Shown in pieces: positions 4,018 through 17,154 of a stretch of 64,000 nucleotides of DNA (within the stretch, counting starts at the first letter, position 1; each line of letters opens with the position of its first letter). Position numbers and translations under genes: made by a program. Below the pieces are notes generated by a model. It did not search any database, was not told the DNA's origin, and saw only the letters and a program-made list of their open reading frames with translations. Origin of the DNA: Nitrospira sp. MA-1 (GTDB taxonomy: Bacteria; Nitrospirota; Nitrospiria; Nitrospirales; UBA8639); assembly GCA_032139905.1 (NCBI GenBank), contig JAQJDB010000006.1:992001-1056000 (forward strand), in the 5' to 3' direction.

Positions 4018-5001
4018 ATGGGCCATAAATTGAATTTTACTGAACAAAGCATTGTACGTTTACCTTTAGTCTCTGTGGTTGTTCCAGTCTATAATGCCGC
4101 TAAATTTTTAACTGAAACTCTTAATTCCATCCTATGCCAGACCTATAAACAAATTGAGGTTATTGCCGTAAATGATGGCTCTACGGATTCCTCGAGAGAA
4201 ATTTTAAAAGAATTTTCTGGTCGGATTCATTGGATAGATCAGGAGAACTATGGGGTGGCCATTGCTCGAAATGTGGGAATTGCCCACAGTAGGGGAAATT
4301 TTGTCGCGTTTTGTGACGCCGATGATATTTGGTTTCCTGAGAAAATCGAATGTCAAATGGACCTTATGCATAGGCATCCTGATGTAGGGGTTGTCGGGGG
4401 GTTGTTGGAAAATGTTGATGAATTGGGAAGAAAAATCGAAGCATGCCTGTGTTATTTAGACCTATATGACAAGCCGATAAATCTTAGGCAGATTCTACTG
4501 ATGGAAGGTAATGTGAACGGTATAGACATGTCGACTGCGATCATTAGAAAAAATGTTTTGGAAAAAATCCAGGGATTTGATCCTGAGCATAAACATCTCA
4601 AGGCGGAGGACTATGATTTTTGGATACGAATTTCGAACCAAACAAAATTTTACCTGCCCTATGAATATTTTGGTCAATATCGGGTTCTCAGAAAATCCAG
4701 GAGTCATGGAAGCTTGCGAAAAGAATATTCTGCGCAATTCCAAATATTGCAAATGTACAGAAGTGAGTATTCTCTCAAGAATTACAACATACGTAAGGCC
4801 AAGATTTATAGTGAATGGGCCGAGAGTAGCTTTGTTGTTGGGGAAAAGCATGCCTGGAAGTTGCAAGCCAAGGCTATGAAATTGCATCCGGCAAACCTCT
4901 ACCACCAGGTCCGGTTCGGCTGGGGATTGATTAAACACATGGTGAAAAGCCTTGTTCGTCCTTTCCAAGGGAATATTGGTTTTCGCAAGGATATCGGGTG
5001 A
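4018..5001 (+). CDS. GT2 family glycosyltransferase
   Basis: This 327-residue soluble GT-A enzyme has the usual order of motifs: VSVVVPVYNAAKFL at the N-terminus, VNDGSTDSS (nucleotide binding), GVAIARNVGI, CDADDIW (DXD-type metal site) and AEDYDFWIRIS, where ED is the likely catalytic base region. The C-terminal 90 residues are basic and may associate with the membrane. It lies 3 bp after the GT39 gene and its stop overlaps the next start (TGATG), so the three genes are probably translated together. By family it adds one sugar to the growing repeat unit; donor and linkage cannot be read from the sequence. Confidence 0.88.
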   Translation: MGHKLNFTEQSIVRLPLVSVVVPVYNAAKFLTETLNSILCQTYKQIEVIAVNDGSTDSSREILKEFSGRIHWIDQENYGVAIARNVGIAHSRGNFVAFCDADDIWFPEKIECQMDLMHRHPDVGVVGGLLENVDELGRKIEACLCYLDLYDKPINLRQILLMEGNVNGIDMSTAIIRKNVLEKIQGFDPEHKHLKAEDYDFWIRISNQTKFYLPYEYFGQYRVLRKSRSHGSLRKEYSAQFQILQMYRSEYSLKNYNIRKAKIYSEWAESSFVVGEKHAWKLQAKAMKLHPANLYHQVRFGWGLIKHMVKSLVRPFQGNIGFRKDIG

Positions 5002-6716
5002 TGGCCTCAACGATACATGAACGTCTTGCCGATTTGGTGGAAGGATATGGCTGGCTGGACGGTGTCGGAAAGATTCTGAATGAATTGGGCTCCGAAGAGC
5101 GAAAGAAACTCTTTTGGGAAATCCACCTCGGATCCCAGGCAGCATGGATGTTATGGGTGGGAAGAACAAGCCAGGATACCGTCCTGGTTCTTGATGCGGG
5201 GTTAGGAACCACAACGGTGGCCCTATCCTATTTATTTATCAATGTGACGGGGGTCTATCGAGATGAGCCTAGCAGGAGATGTGCCATTGCTCGCGCCAGG
5301 CAAGAGGGCCGAAAAATTAAGACTGTCCTCTATGGACTTAATCAGTCCCTTTCTTTTCAGGAAGGCCTCTTTGATCTTGTGTGCCTTCCTGACCCGCAGG
5401 TTTGGTTGGAAGCCGGCGTAGGCACTGTGCGCAAGGCTAGGGATTTTTTTTCCGAACTCTTCAATTTATTGACTCCTGGTGGAATGATCTATTTGGGAAT
5501 GAGGGAAGGGCCATTATTCTCTGACATTGGCTATGAGGCAACCCGGGTATACCAACGCGGCCTTGGATCTGCAATGGTGAGGAATTCAAGCAGAGTTCTC
5601 AACAGACTCAGTTTTTATCCGACTTGCGGGCCTGTTGAAGCGGTATTTGAGGAGCGAAACAAAAAGTCGTGGGTCTCGAAAGGTCGGTCCACATTGAAAA
5701 AAGTGCTAAGAGGGGAGTCGTACGGTTTGATTGTAGGAAAGTCCTGCCCGGAGCGGTCTTCAGGGGTTATAGGGGACATCGTGAGTCAGCCTGAGATTGA
5801 CCAATCGGACCGATCAGATATTCAAGTGTATGTCGGAACTGCCAATACACTTGTGGGGAAACTTCCAGGTCGGATTGTCCGGTTTCCTTTAGGCGACGAG
5901 CCTTTGTTTCGATGTCGAAATAATTATGAGACCTTACATGCGTTACAGGGTAAAGCTCCTGTGGCCATTCCAGCTCCCTACAATCTTCGTCGTTTTGGGG
6001 ATTTGAGGTATTTTGTCGAATCCAAACTACCCGGTCTTGAACCAACAGGGACCCGAAAATGTTCGTGGGAATCTGACAGGATGACGGCTCAGGCCCTTCA
6101 CTTCATTTTGCAACTTCATACCGCAACAGCACAGAAAGTGATTCTTGATGACGCGCTTTTTGAGCGCCTTGTGGGTGCTTCTCTTTCCCATTTAATGGGG
6201 TATTCCAATGGAACCGATAAAGAGATGGTTGCAAAGGTTGAAGCCCTATTGAAAGAAGGGTTGCTGGGAAAGGAAGCGGTTCTGGTGCGGACCCATGGTG
6301 ATTTTAAGCGGACAAATTTACTTGTCAATGAGTCCGGGGAAGTTGTCGGTTTGATCGATTGGGATTTGTCGCGAGAGATGGGTTTTCCGTTGATGGATTT
6401 ATTGTGGTACTTGAGTTACGAAGTCTATTTGAAGCAGCGAATTCCCTTTTACCAAGCCATTGTGAGAGTGGCCTTTGAAGAAGATCTTTTTAAGAATGAG
6501 TGTGTCCAAACGTATTGGCACGCACTCGATTTAGGCCCTGGAGATCGGCAGAAAATTTATGCGGTCATTCTGCTTCTCTATCAATTTCATGAGCATTTCG
6601 ATCATTGGCATAAATCGGAAGAAGATTGGTTCTCTCACGCCATGATGCCAATTTTGCGTTCTGCTTTTGAGAAGGCGTTAGCTACGGTCACTGAAGCAAA
6701 CTGTTCCGTTTCATAA
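5001..6716 (+). CDS. Methyltransferase-like / aminoglycoside-phosphotransferase-like fusion
   Basis: This protein of about 571 residues has two parts. Residues about 1-250 look like a class I SAM-dependent methyltransferase: a glycine-containing strand VLVLDAGLGTTTVALSY, then LFDLVCLPDP and LLTPGGMIYLGM. Residues about 275-560 look like an APH-type kinase: HGDFKRTNLL (catalytic Asp and Asn) and GLIDWDLS (metal-binding Asp). A phosphorylation plus methylation step on a sugar or terminal residue of the polymer is a reasonable inference, recalling terminators of O-antigen chains, but no substrate can be assigned. Start: ATG 5001 overlaps the upstream stop; GTG at 4998 is in frame immediately before it. 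The methyltransferase glycine motif is loose, so the N-terminal call is less certain than the kinase call. Confidence 0.75.
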   Translation: MASTIHERLADLVEGYGWLDGVGKILNELGSEERKKLFWEIHLGSQAAWMLWVGRTSQDTVLVLDAGLGTTTVALSYLFINVTGVYRDEPSRRCAIARARQEGRKIKTVLYGLNQSLSFQEGLFDLVCLPDPQVWLEAGVGTVRKARDFFSELFNLLTPGGMIYLGMREGPLFSDIGYEATRVYQRGLGSAMVRNSSRVLNRLSFYPTCGPVEAVFEERNKKSWVSKGRSTLKKVLRGESYGLIVGKSCPERSSGVIGDIVSQPEIDQSDRSDIQVYVGTANTLVGKLPGRIVRFPLGDEPLFRCRNNYETLHALQGKAPVAIPAPYNLRRFGDLRYFVESKLPGLEPTGTRKCSWESDRMTAQALHFILQLHTATAQKVILDDALFERLVGASLSHLMGYSNGTDKEMVAKVEALLKEGLLGKEAVLVRTHGDFKRTNLLVNESGEVVGLIDWDLSREMGFPLMDLLWYLSYEVYLKQRIPFYQAIVRVAFEEDLFKNECVQTYWHALDLGPGDRQKIYAVILLLYQFHEHFDHWHKSEEDWFSHAMMPILRSAFEKALATVTEANCSVS

Positions 6717-6779: not shown

Positions 6780-8270
6780 ATGGGACTTATGAATATGCAG
6801 TCAGATATGAAGCGCCTCTTCAAGCATTCTTCCATTTATGCAGTCGGAGGAATTGTCAATCGCGCTGGAGCATTTCTTCTTCTTCCGCTCTATACAAGCT
6901 ATTTGACGCCTTCTGAGTATGGGACGCTGGAGTTAGTTTACGGGGTCACGGCACTCGTCTCTTCTTTGCTGGGAGTGGGATTGGCGCATGCGACATTGCG
7001 ATTTTATTTTGAGTTCCAAGAAGAGTTGGAACGAAAATTTCTGGTGAGTACGACATTGGTCGGATCCAGTGTGATTGCCTCCAGCGGGGTCGCCTTGTTG
7101 TGGTTTACGACACCGATTTTGTCAGGATTTCTGCTTGGCTCAAGACAAGACGCGAGTCTCCTACAGCTTGGCCTCCTTATTCTCATTCTACAATTATCCA
7201 CGGAAATTGGTCTCGCGTACTTCCGGGCCAGGGAGTATTCCACCCGATTTGTGGTGGCTTCCTTTCTGCGATTACTTTTACAGGTAGGATGTAATTATTA
7301 CTCGGTGGCTATCCTTGGATGGGGAGTGTGGGGGATTCTTCTGGGAAATCTCATGAGCGTTGGGATATCGTGGGTCTATGTTGTTGGCACCACGGTGTAT
7401 GAATGCGGGCTACGGTTTCACCAAGCCAAGTTTCGCCAGGTGCTCACCTATAGTTTCCCCTTTCTCTTGAGCACCATTGTTGGGGTTGCCGTTCTGTATT
7501 CAGATCGGTTTCTCCTGAAGGCTTTGTATGGACTTGAAGCGGTCGGACTTTATGCTTTGGCGCTGAAGTTCGTGGAATTGGGCAATGTGCTGGTTCTCGA
7601 GCCGTTTAAAAACAGTTATGGATCTTTTCGATTTTCAATAATGAAGAATGAAAATGTGAAAGAATTGCAAGCCAAAATTGTTATTTATATGGCTTTAGTG
7701 GTTGGCCTGTTGGCACTGGGAATTTCAGCTTTTTCACCGGCTATTCTGCGGATGCTGACGACATTAGAATATTGGCCGGCTGAACACCTTATCCCGATTC
7801 TGGCCGCGGGTCTTTTGGTGTCAAGCTTGGGCTACCCATTTCAGACCGGTATTTTGTATTTAAAAAAAACGAAGTACTTATTTTATGTGACTGTGTTGGC
7901 CGGCTTTGTGAAAATCATCTTCAGTGTTGCCATGATCCCTCGTTTGGGGGCAATGGGGGCCGGGTTTGCGTATCTTTTGGCGGAAGTCGTGAGTGTGAGT
8001 TTAATGCTGTTTTATTCGCAACAGCTTTTTCCCATTCAATATGATTATCGGGCTCTGGGAAAAATTGGAGGGATTTGTGCTCTCCTTTTAGGACTCAATT
8101 GGGGAATTCTGTTTATGGGATATGGGGGATTCCTGGGTGCCGGGATAGCTATTGTGAGTTGTTATCCTTTTCTCATATTAAGTGCAGGCTGTCTGAACTG
8201 GTCAGAAGTCGAGGCAGGGTGGCATTTCGCTGTCGAAGAAATCCGGCGGTTGCGGGGAACAACTATATAG
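6780..8270 (+). CDS. Wzx-like polysaccharide flippase (MATE/MOP superfamily)
   Basis: This 496-residue protein has 12-14 hydrophobic segments and the N-terminal pattern of Wzx/RfbX transporters: KHSSIYAVGGIVNRAGAFLLLP, then YTSYLTPSEYGTLELV. Family members move undecaprenyl-diphosphate-linked repeat units across the inner membrane. It sits among glycosyltransferases and the cluster also holds a Wzy/WaaL-like protein at 13900, which together suggests Wzx/Wzy-type polymer export. In-frame ATGs at 6780, 6789 and 6795 make the exact start uncertain. The following gene begins 20 bp downstream. Confidence 0.88.
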   Translation: MGLMNMQSDMKRLFKHSSIYAVGGIVNRAGAFLLLPLYTSYLTPSEYGTLELVYGVTALVSSLLGVGLAHATLRFYFEFQEELERKFLVSTTLVGSSVIASSGVALLWFTTPILSGFLLGSRQDASLLQLGLLILILQLSTEIGLAYFRAREYSTRFVVASFLRLLLQVGCNYYSVAILGWGVWGILLGNLMSVGISWVYVVGTTVYECGLRFHQAKFRQVLTYSFPFLLSTIVGVAVLYSDRFLLKALYGLEAVGLYALALKFVELGNVLVLEPFKNSYGSFRFSIMKNENVKELQAKIVIYMALVVGLLALGISAFSPAILRMLTTLEYWPAEHLIPILAAGLLVSSLGYPFQTGILYLKKTKYLFYVTVLAGFVKIIFSVAMIPRLGAMGAGFAYLLAEVVSVSLMLFYSQQLFPIQYDYRALGKIGGICALLLGLNWGILFMGYGGFLGAGIAIVSCYPFLILSAGCLNWSEVEAGWHFAVEEIRRLRGTTI

Positions 8271-8289: not shown

Positions 8290-10095
8290 ATGGAGGCTTT
8301 TTCAACAAGCTTTAATCAGAGGAATGCATTGGCCAATCAAACAAAAGTTGCTCATGTGGTTTTAAGTCTTCAACCCGGTGGACTCGAGCGGTTGGTATGT
8401 ACGCTTGTTTGTTCTCCTATTCTTTCAACCTTGCCAACGATTGTCCTTTGTTTAGATGAACCGGGGGTTCTTGCTCCTATGGTAGAAAATGCCGGCTGTC
8501 GGATTGTGGTCGTCAAACGTAGGCCAGGACTTGATTTGGGTTTGATTGGTCGTTTGGTCAAAGTATTGAAGCGGGAAGGAGTTACCGTGGTGCACACCCA
8601 CAGTCTTGATCCGATGTTGTATGCCGGGTGGGCAGCGTGGTGGATGTCTGTCGCCGTTCGTATTCATACGCAACATGATATCTGGTTGAGAACATACAAC
8701 TGGAAGGACCGTCTGAAGTTTCGAGTCGGTTCTCTGTTTTTTCATAAAATCGTCGGTGTCTCTCAAGATACAACGCGGGCGTTTGGGGAGTATGGAATCT
8801 CTTCTCCTCAAGGTCTTACGATTTTAAATGGGATCGAAGAAAAGAAATTTTCGAACCCCCACAATGGGAAGAACATGGCTTTTCGCGAGGCCCCCGATTT
8901 TCAAAATCAAAGAGAATGGGTGGTGGGGACCGTAGCCCGGCTCTCTCCTGAAAAAGGAATACATCATCTTTTGCACGCTTATTCGGTCCTTCAGGCACGA
9001 GGCATTGCCCTTCGACTGATCCTTGTTGGAGACGGACCTCAGCGCGGTGAATTGGAAGCGCTAGCAGAGGGTCTTGGTATCTCTTCAAGCGTAGAATTTA
9101 TGGGGTACCAGGAAAATGTTGAAATCTTCCTGTCCACTTTTGATTTTTTTGTTCTTCCATCTTTGACCGAGGGCATACCACTTTCATTGTTGGAGGCGAT
9201 GGCCAACGGTCTTCCCGTTGTGGCGACGAATGTTGGGGGTATTCCTGAGATTATAGTTCATCAGGAATCAGGTCTTTTAATTCCTCCGGGGAATCCCGAA
9301 GATATTGCTCAAGCTCTGTCCCGACTTATCCAGGATCCTGGTGAAGCCAAGCGAATGGCTAACAATGCCCAAAACCGAATTCGAGACCATTTTGGAATGA
9401 CTCCGATGACCGAGGCCTATCAATATCTCTATGAGATGGAGCCACCACCTTCATTCTTGAAGAATATCGTGAAAAAGGTAGCTCAGAAGTTTCCACGGCG
9501 ATGGATGTTATGGAATGGGGAGCGGGATACCCGTCACATTGCCATCACAGTCGACGATGGCCCCGATCCAACCTATACCCCGCAAATTCTTGCAATCCTC
9601 AAAACCTATGGTGTCACCGCAACATTTTTCCTTGTTGGTGAAAAGATCGAGCGGCACAAAGAGTTGGTTTTACGAATGATTGAGGAAGGTCACGAATTGG
9701 GGAATCATTCGTTTACTCATCCTTCCTTCGATCACTTGTCATGGAAGGAAGTCGTCGTGGAAATTGAGCGCACTCAGGCACTCTTTCAAAGCATCACAGG
9801 ACGCCCCTGTCGATTATTCCGTCCTCCCTATGGAAAATTATGTTTGGGCTCTATTGGGGGAGCTTGGCTTGCACGTCTCACGTGTGTCATGTGGAATGTT
9901 GATCTCAAGGATTTCCAGGCAGAGAGTCCAGGAGAAATTCTTGCCGCGCTACAATGCCAGTCTCTTCAATCCGGGGATATTCTGTTATATCACGGAACCA
10001 ATCCCTCTGCGGTCAAGGCACTTCCGAATATCCTGGATGTTATCGTCCGCCAAAACCTGAACCCGGTTCATATTTCAAAAATGCTCACGGTTTGA
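8290..10095 (+). CDS. GT4 glycosyltransferase fused to a NodB polysaccharide deacetylase
   Basis: This 601-residue protein joins two enzymes. Residues about 12-385 form a GT-B glycosyltransferase of family 4: QPGGLERLV near the N-terminus, VGTVARLSPEKGIHHLL, and the donor-site region LPSLTEGIPLSLLEAMANG. Residues about 410-600 form a carbohydrate esterase 4 (NodB) domain: TVDDGPDPTYTP (catalytic Asp and metal Asp), HSFTHPS (metal His pair) and RPPYGK. The zinc-site residues are therefore present. No signal peptide or membrane segment is seen, so the deacetylase probably acts in the cytoplasm on a lipid-linked intermediate, consistent with an N-acetyl sugar being added and then deacetylated. 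This coupling is inferred. Confidence 0.88.
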   Translation: MEAFSTSFNQRNALANQTKVAHVVLSLQPGGLERLVCTLVCSPILSTLPTIVLCLDEPGVLAPMVENAGCRIVVVKRRPGLDLGLIGRLVKVLKREGVTVVHTHSLDPMLYAGWAAWWMSVAVRIHTQHDIWLRTYNWKDRLKFRVGSLFFHKIVGVSQDTTRAFGEYGISSPQGLTILNGIEEKKFSNPHNGKNMAFREAPDFQNQREWVVGTVARLSPEKGIHHLLHAYSVLQARGIALRLILVGDGPQRGELEALAEGLGISSSVEFMGYQENVEIFLSTFDFFVLPSLTEGIPLSLLEAMANGLPVVATNVGGIPEIIVHQESGLLIPPGNPEDIAQALSRLIQDPGEAKRMANNAQNRIRDHFGMTPMTEAYQYLYEMEPPPSFLKNIVKKVAQKFPRRWMLWNGERDTRHIAITVDDGPDPTYTPQILAILKTYGVTATFFLVGEKIERHKELVLRMIEEGHELGNHSFTHPSFDHLSWKEVVVEIERTQALFQSITGRPCRLFRPPYGKLCLGSIGGAWLARLTCVMWNVDLKDFQAESPGEILAALQCQSLQSGDILLYHGTNPSAVKALPNILDVIVRQNLNPVHISKMLTV

Positions 10096-12659: not shown

Positions 12660-13835
12660 GTGTATCTCGTATCTGGACTGCTCGGTGGGTTTTTGATCAT
12701 CCTGGGATTTGTCGGGCTCGTATTGCGGCAAAAGCAGATGCATCTCTGGATTGCGAGCTATGTCATCCAGCAATTTCGTTCTCGTCCAAAGGTGACTGCG
12801 GGGCCGATTCATATATTTTTTTGTGTGACCGACCATTATGAGCCCGCTGTTGGTGGGGTGTCGTATGAACAAGAATGTGCCCGGGTAGAAAAATGGATGA
12901 AAAATTATCCGCATATCGCGTCCAAGCATCGGGATGTGAGTGGGAGATGTCCACAGCATAGCTTCTTCTTTCCTGCGGAAGAATATCGACCTGCTCATTT
13001 AGATCATCTCGCCACTTTATGTGGAATGGGGTTTGGAGATGTTGAGATTCATCTACATCATGATAATGATACCCCCGAACATTTGAGGGATACACTTCAT
13101 GAATTTAAGACCATTCTTCATGAGCGCCACGATCTCCTCCGTAAAAATCCTGAATCAGGAGAGATCGAATATGGTTTTATCCATGGAAACTGGGCCTTAG
13201 ATAATAGTGGTGGTGCAGGGAGATGGTGTGGAGTCAATAATGAGATCTCCATTTTGCGTGAGACGGGGTGTTACGCAGATTTTACCTTTCCTTCCGCTCC
13301 CGACGAGTCTCAGGTTGCCACAATTAACTCTGTGTATTATGCCACCGATGACCCCCTGAGACCGAAATCCCATAACACCGGTGTTGCTGTTGAAGCTGGG
13401 AGGAAGTCCAGTGGAGATTTGATGTTGATCCAAGGTCCATTGGGGTTGAATTGGAAATCTCGAAAATTAGGGTTACTCCCCAGGATTGAAAATGGAGAAC
13501 TCTCCGGGGATAACCCTCCCTCCAAAGAACGCGTTGACCTTTGGATTAAGACTCATATTCACGTACAAGGACAGCCCAATTGGATCTTTGTGAAACTTCA
13601 TACTCATGGAGCCGATGAGCAGAACATGGCGGTTTTGCTTGGAGAGCCCATGGACCGTATGTGGACCTATCTGGAGGACGAATATAACGATGGTCAAAGA
13701 TACTGTCTCCATTATGTGACTGCCTACGAATTATTTCAGGCAGTCAAAGCTGCGGAAAGTGGAGTCGCGCTCGATCCTTCTTTCTATTTAGCAAAATTTG
13801 GGAGATCTTTCAAAGCTACAACAAAAAACAAATGA
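12660..13835 (+). CDS. Membrane-anchored protein, possible polysaccharide deacetylase-like fold
   Basis: This 391-residue protein begins at GTG 12660 with GGAG about 10 bp upstream. One N-terminal transmembrane helix (LVSGLLGGFLIILGFVGLVL) is followed by a soluble domain rich in His and Asp: FCVTDHYEP (about residue 60), GDVEIHLHHDNDTPEHL, FIHGNWALDNS, CGVNNEI, and DFTFPSAPDES. The DH near the start, the paired HLHHD and the HGNW motif recall the metal sites and strand order of NodB-type deacetylases, but canonical motifs are not met, so this is inference. It would act at the periplasmic face. Between a synthase-like GT2 and a ligase/polymerase gene, a role in modifying the polymer is likely. 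Confidence 0.6.
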   Translation: MYLVSGLLGGFLIILGFVGLVLRQKQMHLWIASYVIQQFRSRPKVTAGPIHIFFCVTDHYEPAVGGVSYEQECARVEKWMKNYPHIASKHRDVSGRCPQHSFFFPAEEYRPAHLDHLATLCGMGFGDVEIHLHHDNDTPEHLRDTLHEFKTILHERHDLLRKNPESGEIEYGFIHGNWALDNSGGAGRWCGVNNEISILRETGCYADFTFPSAPDESQVATINSVYYATDDPLRPKSHNTGVAVEAGRKSSGDLMLIQGPLGLNWKSRKLGLLPRIENGELSGDNPPSKERVDLWIKTHIHVQGQPNWIFVKLHTHGADEQNMAVLLGEPMDRMWTYLEDEYNDGQRYCLHYVTAYELFQAVKAAESGVALDPSFYLAKFGRSFKATTKNK

Positions 13836-13899: not shown

Positions 13900-15264
13900 A
13901 TGGTCAAAGAAGAAACCGCAGATCTAGAGCCTGTGGACTCTATTGGGCCCAACCGGGCATCTGGGAATGGACCTATACCTTCACCGCTGTCTTTTCTTCT
14001 ATTTCTTTACTTCATCACGCTTTATTTGCGGCCCCAGGACTGGGTGCCGTTTATGTTGAATTGGCCTGTTGATTATATAATTTTTGCCTTTTTGCTCGGT
14101 GGCTCCATTTTTCAAATGGATGGATGGCAGCGTTTGTGCAAGTTGCCATTATTGTATGTATTGGTAGTCTGGCTTGTGGTGATCAGCCTGTCAAACCTTG
14201 CGCAAGGAGGGGAAGGAGCATGGTATGCGCGTGCGGCTTTCACGGAGTATTCGAAATCCTTTCTTATTTTCATGTGCTTGTTTCTGTTTTTAAACTCAAC
14301 TGGACAAATCCGTCGGCTGATATGGTTCCAAATTTTCCTGTCAGGGCTTCTCGCCTACCAGTGTATTGATCAAGTGGCGACTGGGGTTGGGTGGGCCGGG
14401 CAACATCTTGGTTGGGATGATGGACACGGTGGTCGCGCAAAGTGGGTGGGACTTTGGGATGGGATGAATGTTCTGGCTTTGCTTTTTGTCATTTCCTTTC
14501 CGTTTCTCATTCAATTTATGTTCTCTCCCTGGAATATCTTTATTCGGATTACATCCTTTCTTTTTAGCCTACTTATTTTTCAAGGACTTCTTTTGACTCA
14601 GTCACGCGGAGGATTATTGGCCACAATCGTAGCCTTGTTCGCTTCGCTGGTCTTACGATTTAAGCCACGTACCGCGTTGATCCTTGGTGCCATTGTTCTG
14701 GTTCTGGCCGCGCCGTTGGTTGGCTTTCTGACGACACGCGGGTTTGATGATAGTGATGGGAGTAAGTCAGCGGCACATCGTGTGGATCTTTGGGCTGCAG
14801 GGTTGGAGATGGCTAAAGAAAACCCTGTTTTTGGTGTAGGAAAGATGCGTTTTAAGAGCGCTGCGAGAGATAAAACAGGGCTCAGCCTCATTGCACATAA
14901 TTCTTATGTGGAAAATCTTGGCGAAACTGGCTTCCCCGGGCTGTTTATCTACATCTCATTGTCGTATCTGTCGATAAAAGGGCTGTGGCATGTATCGAGG
15001 CAAGTCTCTGATCCTAAGGATCGCTCACTCGCTTTGGCTCTTTTAGCGAGCATTTGTTCGTATGCAGCCACCTCGATGTTTGTGACCACAGATTTTATTC
15101 TTTTTTATGTACAGCTTGGTATTGCTGCAGCCTTTTGCTCATTAAATGGTTTTCTTCCTCGGTTGACTCTAAATGATATTTTTTGGATTGCCGTGATAGA
15201 AGTTGGATTTGTACTGTTTCTTCGATTATTTACTGCACTGTTTTTTGCTGGCGGAATGTCATAA
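13900..15264 (+). CDS. O-antigen ligase/polymerase family membrane protein (Wzy/WaaL)
   Basis: This 454-residue protein has 10 or more hydrophobic segments and the O-antigen ligase family signature region: LTQSRGGLLATIVALF followed by a large periplasmic loop with GVGKMRF and AHNSYVENLGETGFPGLF, where the conserved His is thought to matter for catalysis. Similar proteins are found in exosortase-A-associated EPS loci and are called putative O-glycosylation ligases there. With the flippase at 6780 it would complete a Wzx/Wzy-like route in the inner membrane. The N-terminal 25 residues are hydrophilic. Which of polymerase and ligase applies cannot be decided from sequence alone. Confidence 0.8.
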   Translation: MVKEETADLEPVDSIGPNRASGNGPIPSPLSFLLFLYFITLYLRPQDWVPFMLNWPVDYIIFAFLLGGSIFQMDGWQRLCKLPLLYVLVVWLVVISLSNLAQGGEGAWYARAAFTEYSKSFLIFMCLFLFLNSTGQIRRLIWFQIFLSGLLAYQCIDQVATGVGWAGQHLGWDDGHGGRAKWVGLWDGMNVLALLFVISFPFLIQFMFSPWNIFIRITSFLFSLLIFQGLLLTQSRGGLLATIVALFASLVLRFKPRTALILGAIVLVLAAPLVGFLTTRGFDDSDGSKSAAHRVDLWAAGLEMAKENPVFGVGKMRFKSAARDKTGLSLIAHNSYVENLGETGFPGLFIYISLSYLSIKGLWHVSRQVSDPKDRSLALALLASICSYAATSMFVTTDFILFYVQLGIAAAFCSLNGFLPRLTLNDIFWIAVIEVGFVLFLRLFTALFFAGGMS

Positions 15265-15288
15265 CCTTTTTCTTCGGAGTCAAATGCT

Positions 15289-17154
15289 ATGTGTGCCATA
15301 TGTGGTGTGGTGAGGTTTAGGGACGGTGAACCTGTCGAACAAAATCTCCTTGTGCAGATGAGGGATTCGATGGCTCATCGGGGTCCTGACTCCGCGGGAA
15401 TATTTTTGAATAAGCATGTGGGCTTTGGACACCGAAGGCTGAAGATTATTGATTTACATGCTGGCGCACAGCCTATGTTTAATGAGGATGGGACTATTGC
15501 GGTTGTCTACAATGGCGAGATATACAATTTTTTGGAATTGCGAGAGCACTTAATAGCTAAGGGGCACACCTTTCAAACCAAGTGTGATACTGAGGTTATT
15601 GTGCATGCCTATGAAGAATATGGAATTGACTGTCCCAAATGGTTTGACGGCATGTTTGCCTTTGCCCTTTATGATGCCACCAAGAATTCGGTCTTTCTCG
15701 CTCGGGACCGGGTTGGGATAAAGCCACTCTACTTTTATATGGACCAGCATCAGTTCCTCTTTGCTTCCGAGGTGCGCGCCATTCTCAAGGTGCTTGAATT
15801 TCGCCCATCCGCAAATATAGCTGCTTTGGATTTCTACGTGTCGGTAGGATTTGTACCCGGAGAAACTACATTGTTCCAAGGTGTCCAAAAATTGCTCCCT
15901 GGGTATGGTTTAATTCTTCAGGATCGACAGGTGACGCTTTCACAGTATTGGGATCTGAATGATGCTCCGCCCAGCGAGTTATCTTTTGGTGAAGCTCAAG
16001 AACGGTATGCCGAATTACTTCAAAAAAGCATTGAAATGAGTCTGATGAGTGATGTCCCATTGGGGGCATTTTTAAGTGGTGGGATTGATTCCAGTGCGGT
16101 GGTTGCAGGAATGAGTAAATCTATGACCGAGCCGGTCAAGACCTTTTCTGTTGGATATCATGATGATAAAGATGCCAGCGAACTTCCCTATGCCCAGTGT
16201 ATTGCAAATATTTTTCACACGGAACATCACGAGTATATTCTTGAATCGGAAGAATTCTTTGCCTCATTGGATTTGTTACTTGAGTACACGGAAGAACCCA
16301 TTGTGGAAAGTGCGGCAATTGCACTTTTCCACCTCTCTCGGTTAGCCAAAGAGCATGTGACGGTTATTCTCTCAGGGGAGGGAAGTGACGAGATTCTAGC
16401 CGGCTATCCCCTGTACCCGATTATGGCAAGGCTTGATCGAATCCACCGTGTATTTGGCTACCTCCCATCCTGGATTCATGAATGTCTGTCGACGAGCCTC
16501 AAGGCCAATGAGAAATACACAAAGTATGTTGATTGGATGAGAATGTCTCTTCTTAACCGCTATCGAGGAATCTCTAACGATGTGACGCCGAGCATCAAGC
16601 GGAAAATGTATCAACCGGGCTTTGCTTCTCGTTTAGGCAATGATTCTGATGTATTTTTTGAAAAACTTCTTGGCACACTTTCCCAAAGTTCCGGATTGAG
16701 GAAAATGGGCTATCTGGATATTAAGTCTTGGTTGCCTGATGATTTGCTGGTCAAAGCGGATAAGATGACCATGGCCAATTCCCTTGAACTGCGTGTACCA
16801 TTTTTGGATCACCATTTACTTGAATTTGCCATGTCCTTGCCTGATGAGTATCGATTGAAAGGGTGGGAGGGGAAATTGGCCTTAAAAAAAGTTATGGAAA
16901 AAGTTTTGCCTCATGAGATTATTTATCGAAAGAAGAAAGGATTTCCCGTGCCAGTGGCAAGGTGGTTTAAGGAAAAACTTTATCATCAGGTTCGTGATGT
17001 CTTGCTGGATAGCAAAAGTCTCACACGAAATTACTTTCAAGAGTCGTATATTGATAATGCTTTGAAGCGACATCGGCAGGGAAAGGAAGATTTGAGCCGA
17101 AGACTTTTTTCCCTTGTCGCTTTGGAAATGTGGCACAAAAAGTACATTGATTGA
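15289..17154 (+). CDS. asnB: AsnB-type glutamine amidotransferase (asparagine synthetase family)
   Basis: This 621-residue enzyme starts MCAICGVVRF, giving the N-terminal nucleophile Cys2 after methionine removal, followed by the class II glutaminase motifs HRGPDSAG and YNGEIYNF. The C-terminal synthetase domain has the ATP-binding PP-loop LSGGIDSSAVV (about residue 260) and GEGSDEILAGYP. It hydrolyses glutamine and passes ammonia to an adenylated carboxylate. Inside an EPS cluster such proteins often amidate a sugar acid rather than make asparagine; homologues in exosortase loci are annotated as exosortase A-associated amidotransferase. The substrate is an inference. Confidence 0.9.
   Translation: MCAICGVVRFRDGEPVEQNLLVQMRDSMAHRGPDSAGIFLNKHVGFGHRRLKIIDLHAGAQPMFNEDGTIAVVYNGEIYNFLELREHLIAKGHTFQTKCDTEVIVHAYEEYGIDCPKWFDGMFAFALYDATKNSVFLARDRVGIKPLYFYMDQHQFLFASEVRAILKVLEFRPSANIAALDFYVSVGFVPGETTLFQGVQKLLPGYGLILQDRQVTLSQYWDLNDAPPSELSFGEAQERYAELLQKSIEMSLMSDVPLGAFLSGGIDSSAVVAGMSKSMTEPVKTFSVGYHDDKDASELPYAQCIANIFHTEHHEYILESEEFFASLDLLLEYTEEPIVESAAIALFHLSRLAKEHVTVILSGEGSDEILAGYPLYPIMARLDRIHRVFGYLPSWIHECLSTSLKANEKYTKYVDWMRMSLLNRYRGISNDVTPSIKRKMYQPGFASRLGNDSDVFFEKLLGTLSQSSGLRKMGYLDIKSWLPDDLLVKADKMTMANSLELRVPFLDHHLLEFAMSLPDEYRLKGWEGKLALKKVMEKVLPHEIIYRKKKGFPVPVARWFKEKLYHQVRDVLLDSKSLTRNYFQESYIDNALKRHRQGKEDLSRRLFSLVALEMWHKKYID

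Follow-up and report, generated by a model that had tools for sequence, protein, structure and literature searches.

An APH-type kinase fused to a methyltransferase-like domain in a Nitrospira polysaccharide gene cluster

In a 64,000-nucleotide stretch of DNA from Nitrospira sp. MA-1 (contig JAQJDB010000006.1, positions 992,001 to 1,056,000, forward strand), which we refer to as a whole as the window, one gene encodes a methyltransferase-like domain followed by an APH-type kinase. The explanation we favour, with slightly better than even confidence, is that this 571-residue protein is a glycan or sugar kinase of the APH fold with an N-terminal pseudo-methyltransferase domain, the nature of its substrate being suggested by the genomic context. 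An earlier note on this DNA had seen in the fusion a new form of the chain-capping enzymes exemplified by WbdD. WbdD-like chain capping by the window protein is unlikely, although the lineage of the gene may include a capping pair. Here we set out the evidence from the two halves of the protein, from the surrounding gene cluster and from relatives in Nitrospirota, whose genomes are cited by our own numbers (the window is G000:C6:992001-1056000, and genome G000 comprises 4.76 Mb in 7 contigs).

The fusion gene (5001..6716, + strand) is a single open frame (4998/5001-6716), with an ATG at 5001 and a stop codon that ends at 6716. The fusion is present in four of twenty same-genus genomes (G000, G003, G017 and G018); the G017 protein is 100% identical to that of the window, which leaves three distinct sequences in the clade, and at 77% (G003) and 60% (G018) identity neither the frame nor the order of the domains has changed. 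The ratio of nonsynonymous to synonymous substitution (dN/dS), calculated by NG86 for the three pairs among window, G003 and G018 with each half taken separately, was 0.228, 0.261 and 0.345 for the N-terminal half; the corresponding values of the kinase half were 0.221, 0.195 and 0.184. Both halves are under purifying selection (dN/dS <0.5), which is no stronger on the N-terminal half than on the kinase. Because frame, domain order and selection are conserved in this way, across three distinct sequences, we rejected the possibility that the fusion arose by chance or is an artefact of assembly.

The C-terminal half is, on its sequence, an intact APH-type small-molecule kinase. Pfam APH (PF01636) matches residues 276-491 with an E-value of 1.4e-15 and 58.2 bits against a cut-off of 23.2, and the kinase domain together with its C-terminal helices (residues 276-571; 5826..6713, + strand) could be delimited from an alignment of nine kinases (A5) and its matches in the PDB. 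The catalytic loop HGDFKRTN (residues 432-439; 6294..6317, +) has H, D and N invariant in all nine aligned kinases, and the metal-binding motif IDWD (residues 452-455; 6354..6365, +) has its first D and its W invariant in the same nine. These nine were chosen for their likeness to the window kinase; for one of them, from G232, Pfam finds no APH domain at E 0.5, and it was counted as a kinase by its match to a second profile, A2 (2.9e-9), and by its HRDF...N and MDWEW motifs. The best PDB match of the A5 profile is a macrolide 2'-phosphotransferase (4.7e-7), followed by 3dxp, a chain named as a putative acyl-CoA dehydrogenase (8.8e-6), and the matches also include the aminoglycoside kinases APH(3') and APH(2''). 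The C-terminal half of profile A1, built from four fusions (window, G003, G018 and the more distant G277), gave matches to solved APH-type kinases (8v3v, 6.5e-4; 9o56, 0.005) that are weaker than those of its N-terminal half to methyltransferases. Most of the solved relatives nearest to the window kinase are thus APH-fold antibiotic kinases, with which, as with the wider PF01636 family, it has the HGD...N and DW(D/E) motifs in common; it differs from that family in being joined to a methyltransferase-derived domain. APH genes are rare in this organism, the whole genome containing four matches at E 1e-5.

The solved relatives also bear on a different role for the kinase, in which it would phosphorylate free sugars, at position 1 or elsewhere, to supply precursors of nucleotide sugars, in the manner of NahK or AmgK, with the N-terminal domain only aiding folding. 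APH-fold anomeric sugar kinases exist, and the weaker matches of the A5 profile to solved structures include N-acetylhexosamine 1-kinase (E 0.012). The best solved relatives, however, are the macrolide and aminoglycoside kinases, no nucleotidyltransferase was found among the twelve cluster proteins scanned, and the presence of a methyltransferase alongside the kinase in several relatives (described below) suggests a later modification step. We regard such a precursor-making role as rather unlikely.

The N-terminal half is, by profile comparison, homologous to class I methyltransferases. Its core (residues 58-170; 5172..5510, + strand) is defined by a borderline match to Methyltransf_11 at residues 64-164 (E 4.6e-4, 21.2 bits, exactly the cut-off) and by the alignment of profile A1 to solved methyltransferases (PH0226, 1ve3, E 1.4e-6). 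The S-adenosylmethionine (SAM) site of this domain nevertheless looks eroded in the window clade. In alignment A1, motif I reads DAGLGTT (residues 65-71; 5193..5213, +), with DAGMGTT in G003 and DDSIGTT in G018, against the class I consensus (E/D)xGxGxG, a partial decay. In class I methyltransferases, an acidic residue at the end of strand beta-2 binds the ribose of SAM. The window protein has Tyr86 at this position (5256..5258, +), and G003 and G018 have Phe, so that the acid is replaced in all three distinct sequences of the clade; the FD of motif IV is retained. As a control we aligned the 30 Methyltransf_11 matches of the window's own genome that have loci (of 34) with a profile built from these 30, leaving out two partial matches, L069 and L072, of which the former is gapped at the column. 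An aspartate or glutamate occupies the beta-2 position in 27 of the 28 readable proteins and in all six of the further stand-alone methyltransferases taken from the clusters under comparison. Since the N-terminal half is under purifying selection and yet has altered SAM motifs, the domain appears to be kept, though probably not as a methyltransferase; it is probably retained as a non-catalytic fold.

Several observations weigh against this reading. The loss of the SAM site is read from alignment alone, the AlphaFold models being too poor to show a pocket (mean pLDDT 31.2 for the whole protein and 31.8 for the N-terminal domain, two sequences each). One readable methyltransferase of the same genome, L054, also lacks the beta-2 acid (N), and the set-aside L072 reads S. 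Window and G003 have practically equal dN/dS in their two halves (0.228 versus 0.221). The N-terminal domains of G024 and G037 have no significant methyltransferase match by profile alignment, hhalign or Pfam. The G277 fusion, in turn, has a better preserved motif I (ETGRGT), and the profile places a glutamate, ambiguously, at the beta-2 column, such that the acid may be retained one residue on (VAVQE); judged from its sequence, this fusion could be an active methyltransferase. Finally, the copies in G223 and G277 lie, by reading of their neighbours, outside glycan clusters, and some members may therefore act on a substrate other than a glycan.

The genes around the fusion place it in a polysaccharide cluster that looks to be of the Wzx/Wzy type, and here the earlier note, which had also recognized the kinase motifs (HGDFKRTNLL and IDWD) behind the methyltransferase-like domain, is borne out. 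The fusion ATG shares one base with the stop codon (TGATG) of an upstream GT2 glycosyltransferase gene (4018..5001, + strand; PF00535, E 1.1e-35); downstream lie a Wzx-type flippase (6780..8270, +; Polysacc_synt_3, E 1.8e-15) and, in the same cluster, a Wzy/O-antigen-ligase-type membrane protein (13900..15264, +; Wzy_C, E 5.9e-24). No component of an ATP-binding cassette (ABC) exporter was found among the ten proteins scanned with Pfam (the fusion and nine neighbours); NCBIfam alone was applied to the proteins starting at 15289 and 17167, and the frame at 45-689 lay outside the scans. Wzt_C domains occur elsewhere in the genome, on contig C7 (117.6 bits) and, below the cut-off, on C6 (25.0 bits), the latter being the match nearest to the fusion on its contig and approximately 283 kb away. 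Wzt_C had no match at E 1e-3 in the genomes of G024, G277, G037 and G232, indicating that kinases of this group occur without a Wzt_C-type exporter. The protein itself has no detectable coiled coil: the heptad score of its last 116 residues, a crude measure of our own, was reached by 481 of 500 shuffled sequences, and the corresponding tails gave 369 of 500 in G003 and 93 of 500 in G018. The lack of a detected coiled coil, together with a Wzx/Wzy-looking cluster in which the scan found no ABC component, makes WbdD-like capping unlikely.

Two loci of the same genome that join Wzm-Wzt-like genes to methyltransferase or kinase genes came to light during these searches. At L029:8398-13975 (G000:C7), a 1093-aa protein follows a Wzm (by reading) and the Wzt with the 117.6-bit Wzt_C match; it begins with a methyltransferase domain, continues with a stretch that weakly resembles a coiled coil (score reached by 22 of 500 shuffles) and then has a GT2-like part, recognized by reading the sequence. 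The second, at L028:9144-12766 (G000:C6), contains the sub-cut-off Wzt_C match (25.0 bits) and, directly downstream, an APH-type kinase of 392 aa (PF01636, 29.1 versus 23.2 bits).

Comparison with known terminators sharpens the contrast. WbdD of Escherichia coli O9a comprises a methyltransferase (1-210), a eukaryotic-type kinase (211-459) and a C-terminal part (460-708) with a coiled coil, and serves an ABC-dependent O antigen (PMC3482155). The window protein has the same order of methyltransferase then kinase in one chain. In contrast to WbdD, its kinase is APH-type, its SAM motifs are altered, and neither a coiled coil nor an ABC pathway was detected for it or its scanned neighbours. WbdD was also absent from the 31 PDB sequences matched by profile A1 at E up to 10. 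A closer parallel is ORF6 of Klebsiella pneumoniae O7, a methyltransferase-kinase terminator (2024) whose kinase is closest to the aminoglycoside-type kinase AmiN, whose activity was demonstrated in vitro and abolished by D441A, and for which orthologues are reported from alpha- and gammaproteobacteria and cyanobacteria (PMC11231755). By description, a methyltransferase followed by an aminoglycoside-kinase-like domain, in glycan assembly, is common to ORF6-O7 and the window protein. ORF6-O7 also has a coiled coil, a CBM-like domain, GT2 modules, SAM residues and an ABC exporter, none of which was found for the window protein. A capping enzyme with an aminoglycoside-kinase-like domain is already known (PMC11231755), and the proposal of a new form of capping enzyme has accordingly been overtaken. 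Judging from the sequences, the window protein appears to be set apart by its altered methyltransferase site, by the lack of a coiled coil and by its Wzx/Wzy setting; a pseudo-methyltransferase-APH fusion is not described in the titles and abstract starts of the best literature matches listed.

These comparisons also frame the principal competing explanation, an active dual enzyme that adds methyl-phosphate to the glycan end or repeat unit, WbdD- or O7-like, within a Wzx/Wzy pathway. It would account for the domain order, which is that of WbdD and ORF6-O7, for an N-terminal half that reaches the Methyltransf_11 cut-off under purifying selection with its motif IV intact, and for the existence of a related, separate pair behind Wzm-Wzt in G074, a pair that has a coiled coil in the tail of its kinase and is followed by a dual-GT2 gene. 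The decayed motif I and the loss of the beta-2 acid throughout the clade speak against it, as do the undetected coiled coil, the lack of an ABC component among the ten scanned proteins and the absence of WbdD from the PDB matches; G024, moreover, has a similar kinase in a cluster whose neighbours, read from sequence, resemble those of the window, in a genome without a Wzt_C match at E 1e-3. We consider an active dual enzyme quite unlikely, and return to the pseudo-methyltransferase kinase.

The N-terminal domain probably has its origin, to judge from profile searches, in a methyltransferase gene that stood beside an APH-kinase gene, an arrangement in which the two are still separate and adjacent in some Nitrospirota. 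A profile of the four fused N-terminal domains ranked the stand-alone methyltransferases of G069 and G223 first outside the four (46.1 and 39.7 bits), with the next among all other methyltransferases tested at only 12.0 bits, making these two the closest relatives of the domain among the methyltransferases tested. By hhalign, the window clade matched the G069/G223 pair with E 1.1e-13 and G277 with 6e-13, and the fused domains matched none of five other methyltransferases or four control proteins. This comparison favours G069/G223, which form a two-sequence profile where the other targets are single sequences; for calibration, the window clade against the single N-terminal domain of G277, a clear relative, gave only 4.9e-4. 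The N-terminal domains of the G069 kinase and of G232 gave weak matches (1.4e-5 and 9.3e-5), those of G024 and G037 none. Against this origin, the reverse two-sequence profile places the fusions among its better matches but interspersed with other methyltransferases (window 24.9 bits, OWN_L078 36.3), and a seven-sequence methyltransferase profile scores the window clade at 27-32 bits (window protein 27.3), values that ordinary methyltransferases also reach. The window-clade fusions are not singled out by any of four control profiles made from unrelated methyltransferases. Because the reverse searches rank the fusions among ordinary methyltransferases, the kinship with the APH-adjacent methyltransferase is supported mainly from the fused side.

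The phylum-level searches took in 295, 395 and 395 genomes out of a larger group. The APH-adjacent methyltransferase family was found in seven of 395 genomes at 1e-15, and in five of the seven (G223, G474, G074, G462 and G069) an APH or APH-like gene is adjacent; G223 and G069 were search seeds, noticed because both genes are present, and without them the count is three of five. The methyltransferase and kinase genes overlap at their ends in G223, G474 and G074, and the G069 kinase beside the stand-alone methyltransferase has a degenerate N-terminal domain. G191 and G197 have the methyltransferase with no APH match in the approximately 6 kb examined on each side; the occurrence of genomes with only one half, which the earlier note had set as a refutation, is thus found in part. 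The methyltransferases of G223, G069, G474, G462 and G074 stand alone and keep motif I and the beta-2 acid, unlike the window fusion, and several family members begin with a zinc-ribbon-like CxxC...CxxC, with Trm112p matches just under the cut-off, a feature absent from the fusion. The G474 pair lies with glycosyltransferase-9 (heptosyltransferase) genes, as shown by scanning, the G462 pair likewise by reading, and the G069 pair, by reading, in a Wzx/ligase-type cluster. Separately, a 1556-aa frame in the window's own genome (L078, G000:C7:1206843-1207151) contains a relative of the APH-adjacent family, a methyltransferase domain that scores 62.9 bits against the seven-sequence profile.

Capping fits the G074 relative better than it fits the window protein, as far as gene order and sequence can tell. 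At L090:2831-9814 (G074:C4), an ABC-2 permease (PF01061), a Wzt with Wzt_C, the methyltransferase and an APH-like kinase follow one another, and next comes a protein containing two consecutive GT2 stretches. The kinase is below the Pfam APH cut-off (17.7 versus 23.2 bits) and weak with A5 (E 0.0083); it retains GD...N and DFD, and its tail has a strong heptad pattern, reached by none of 500 shuffles on the same crude score. The locus resembles a WbdD-type terminator divided over two genes and accompanied by its polymerase. The capping idea is thus more plausible for a relative than for the window protein: the coiled-coil ruler and ABC exporter that had been proposed as a check in relatives are both found in G074, and neither in the window protein or its scanned neighbours. 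More speculatively, a Nitrospirota family of methyltransferase/APH-kinase pairs might put phosphate or methyl-phosphate on surface glycans, the G074 pair serving an ABC exporter as a split, WbdD-like terminator whose ruler is part of the kinase, and the window-clade pair having fused, moved into a Wzx/Wzy operon and lost methylation, so as to mark or stop repeat units with phosphate alone. We regard this wider scenario as less likely than not.

For the window protein as a kinase with a pseudo-methyltransferase domain, the following mechanism can be envisaged. Before flipping by Wzx, the kinase would move the gamma-phosphate of ATP to a sugar hydroxyl; the acceptor sugar would most likely belong to a lipid-linked repeat unit or to a precursor of one. 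The N-terminal domain would act as a scaffold or acceptor-binding module whose fold was kept while methylation was lost, and the product would bear a phosphate without a methyl-phosphate cap. A phosphocholine-type decoration, in which the methyltransferase and a choline/ethanolamine kinase together make phosphocholine, is by comparison very unlikely. Weak Choline_kinase matches below threshold hint at it, with 11.7 bits in G018 (cut-off 29) and 16.9 bits in G037; the SAM site, however, looks eroded, the window protein lists APH and not choline kinase at E 0.1, and a LicD-family match was found in none of ten genomes at E 1e-3 (the control was positive in two of 14 named genomes), a negative softened in that LicD is not the sole conceivable transferase.

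Beyond the genus, six of 269 genomes at the class level match at E 1e-12: the four with the fusion, G277, whose protein is fused and 24% identical, and G024, which matches through the kinase part. A scan of genome_contigs with the window protein as single query, whose reach is limited to close relatives, found these encoded by named records of Nitrospiraceae/Nitrospirales genomes (2 loci). Profile A2, which includes G024, matched ten of 395 phylum genomes at 1e-7; of two G462 matches in that search one locus was read and the other, G462:C8 (L039), left out. The kinases of G037 and G232 are 515-521 aa long and extended at the N terminus by approximately 200 aa, G223 has a lone kinase adjoining a methyltransferase gene, and G069, matched through its stand-alone methyltransferase, has as neighbour a 552-aa kinase with an N-terminal extension. 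Pfam APH is above the cut-off in G024, G037, G069 and G223. In the N-terminal domains of the G232 and G069 kinases, only the second half aligns to the methyltransferase profile. A mobile or plasmid origin was also considered and found unsupported: plasmids had no match for the window protein or the G277 protein, and the 30 pattern matches in viral contigs yielded no confirmed relative. The kinases with degenerate N-terminal domains in G232 (L046:3258-4574) and G037 (L047:10574-11863) each adjoin a protein with sub-threshold P-loop/thymidylate-kinase-like matches, a possible recurring partner, which in G037 also has a sub-threshold nucleotidyltransferase match.

The two methyl-phosphate terminators compared here, WbdD and ORF6-O7, are enterobacterial and ABC-dependent. 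A pair that exists as separate genes, as a fusion, and as a fusion with a decayed methyltransferase would make it testable which half of a terminator matters and whether phosphate alone ends or marks a chain, and could show how terminators shift between ABC and Wzx/Wzy pathways. For genome annotation, the label 'methyltransferase' on these fusions may mislead as to activity. In wastewater treatment, flocs and biofilms are formed by Nitrospira-type bacteria, whose exopolysaccharide matters there.

Other genes of the window cluster, all on the + strand, have features of their own. For the 391-aa protein at 12660-13835, neither Pfam nor NCBIfam gives a match at E 0.1, and a similar frame is present in G018. 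Within 13900-17154, the ligase can be likened to the exosortase-A cluster family TIGR03097 (62.9 bits, below the cut-off of 188.1), and an asparagine-synthase-like amidotransferase to the exosortase-A cluster family TIGR03108 (565.2 bits, below the cut-off of 816.9). At 8290-10095, a GT4 glycosyltransferase is joined to a polysaccharide deacetylase (Polysacc_deac_1, E 2.7e-34), and frames resembling this second fusion, read from sequence, occur in the clusters of G018 (606 aa) and G003 (591 aa).

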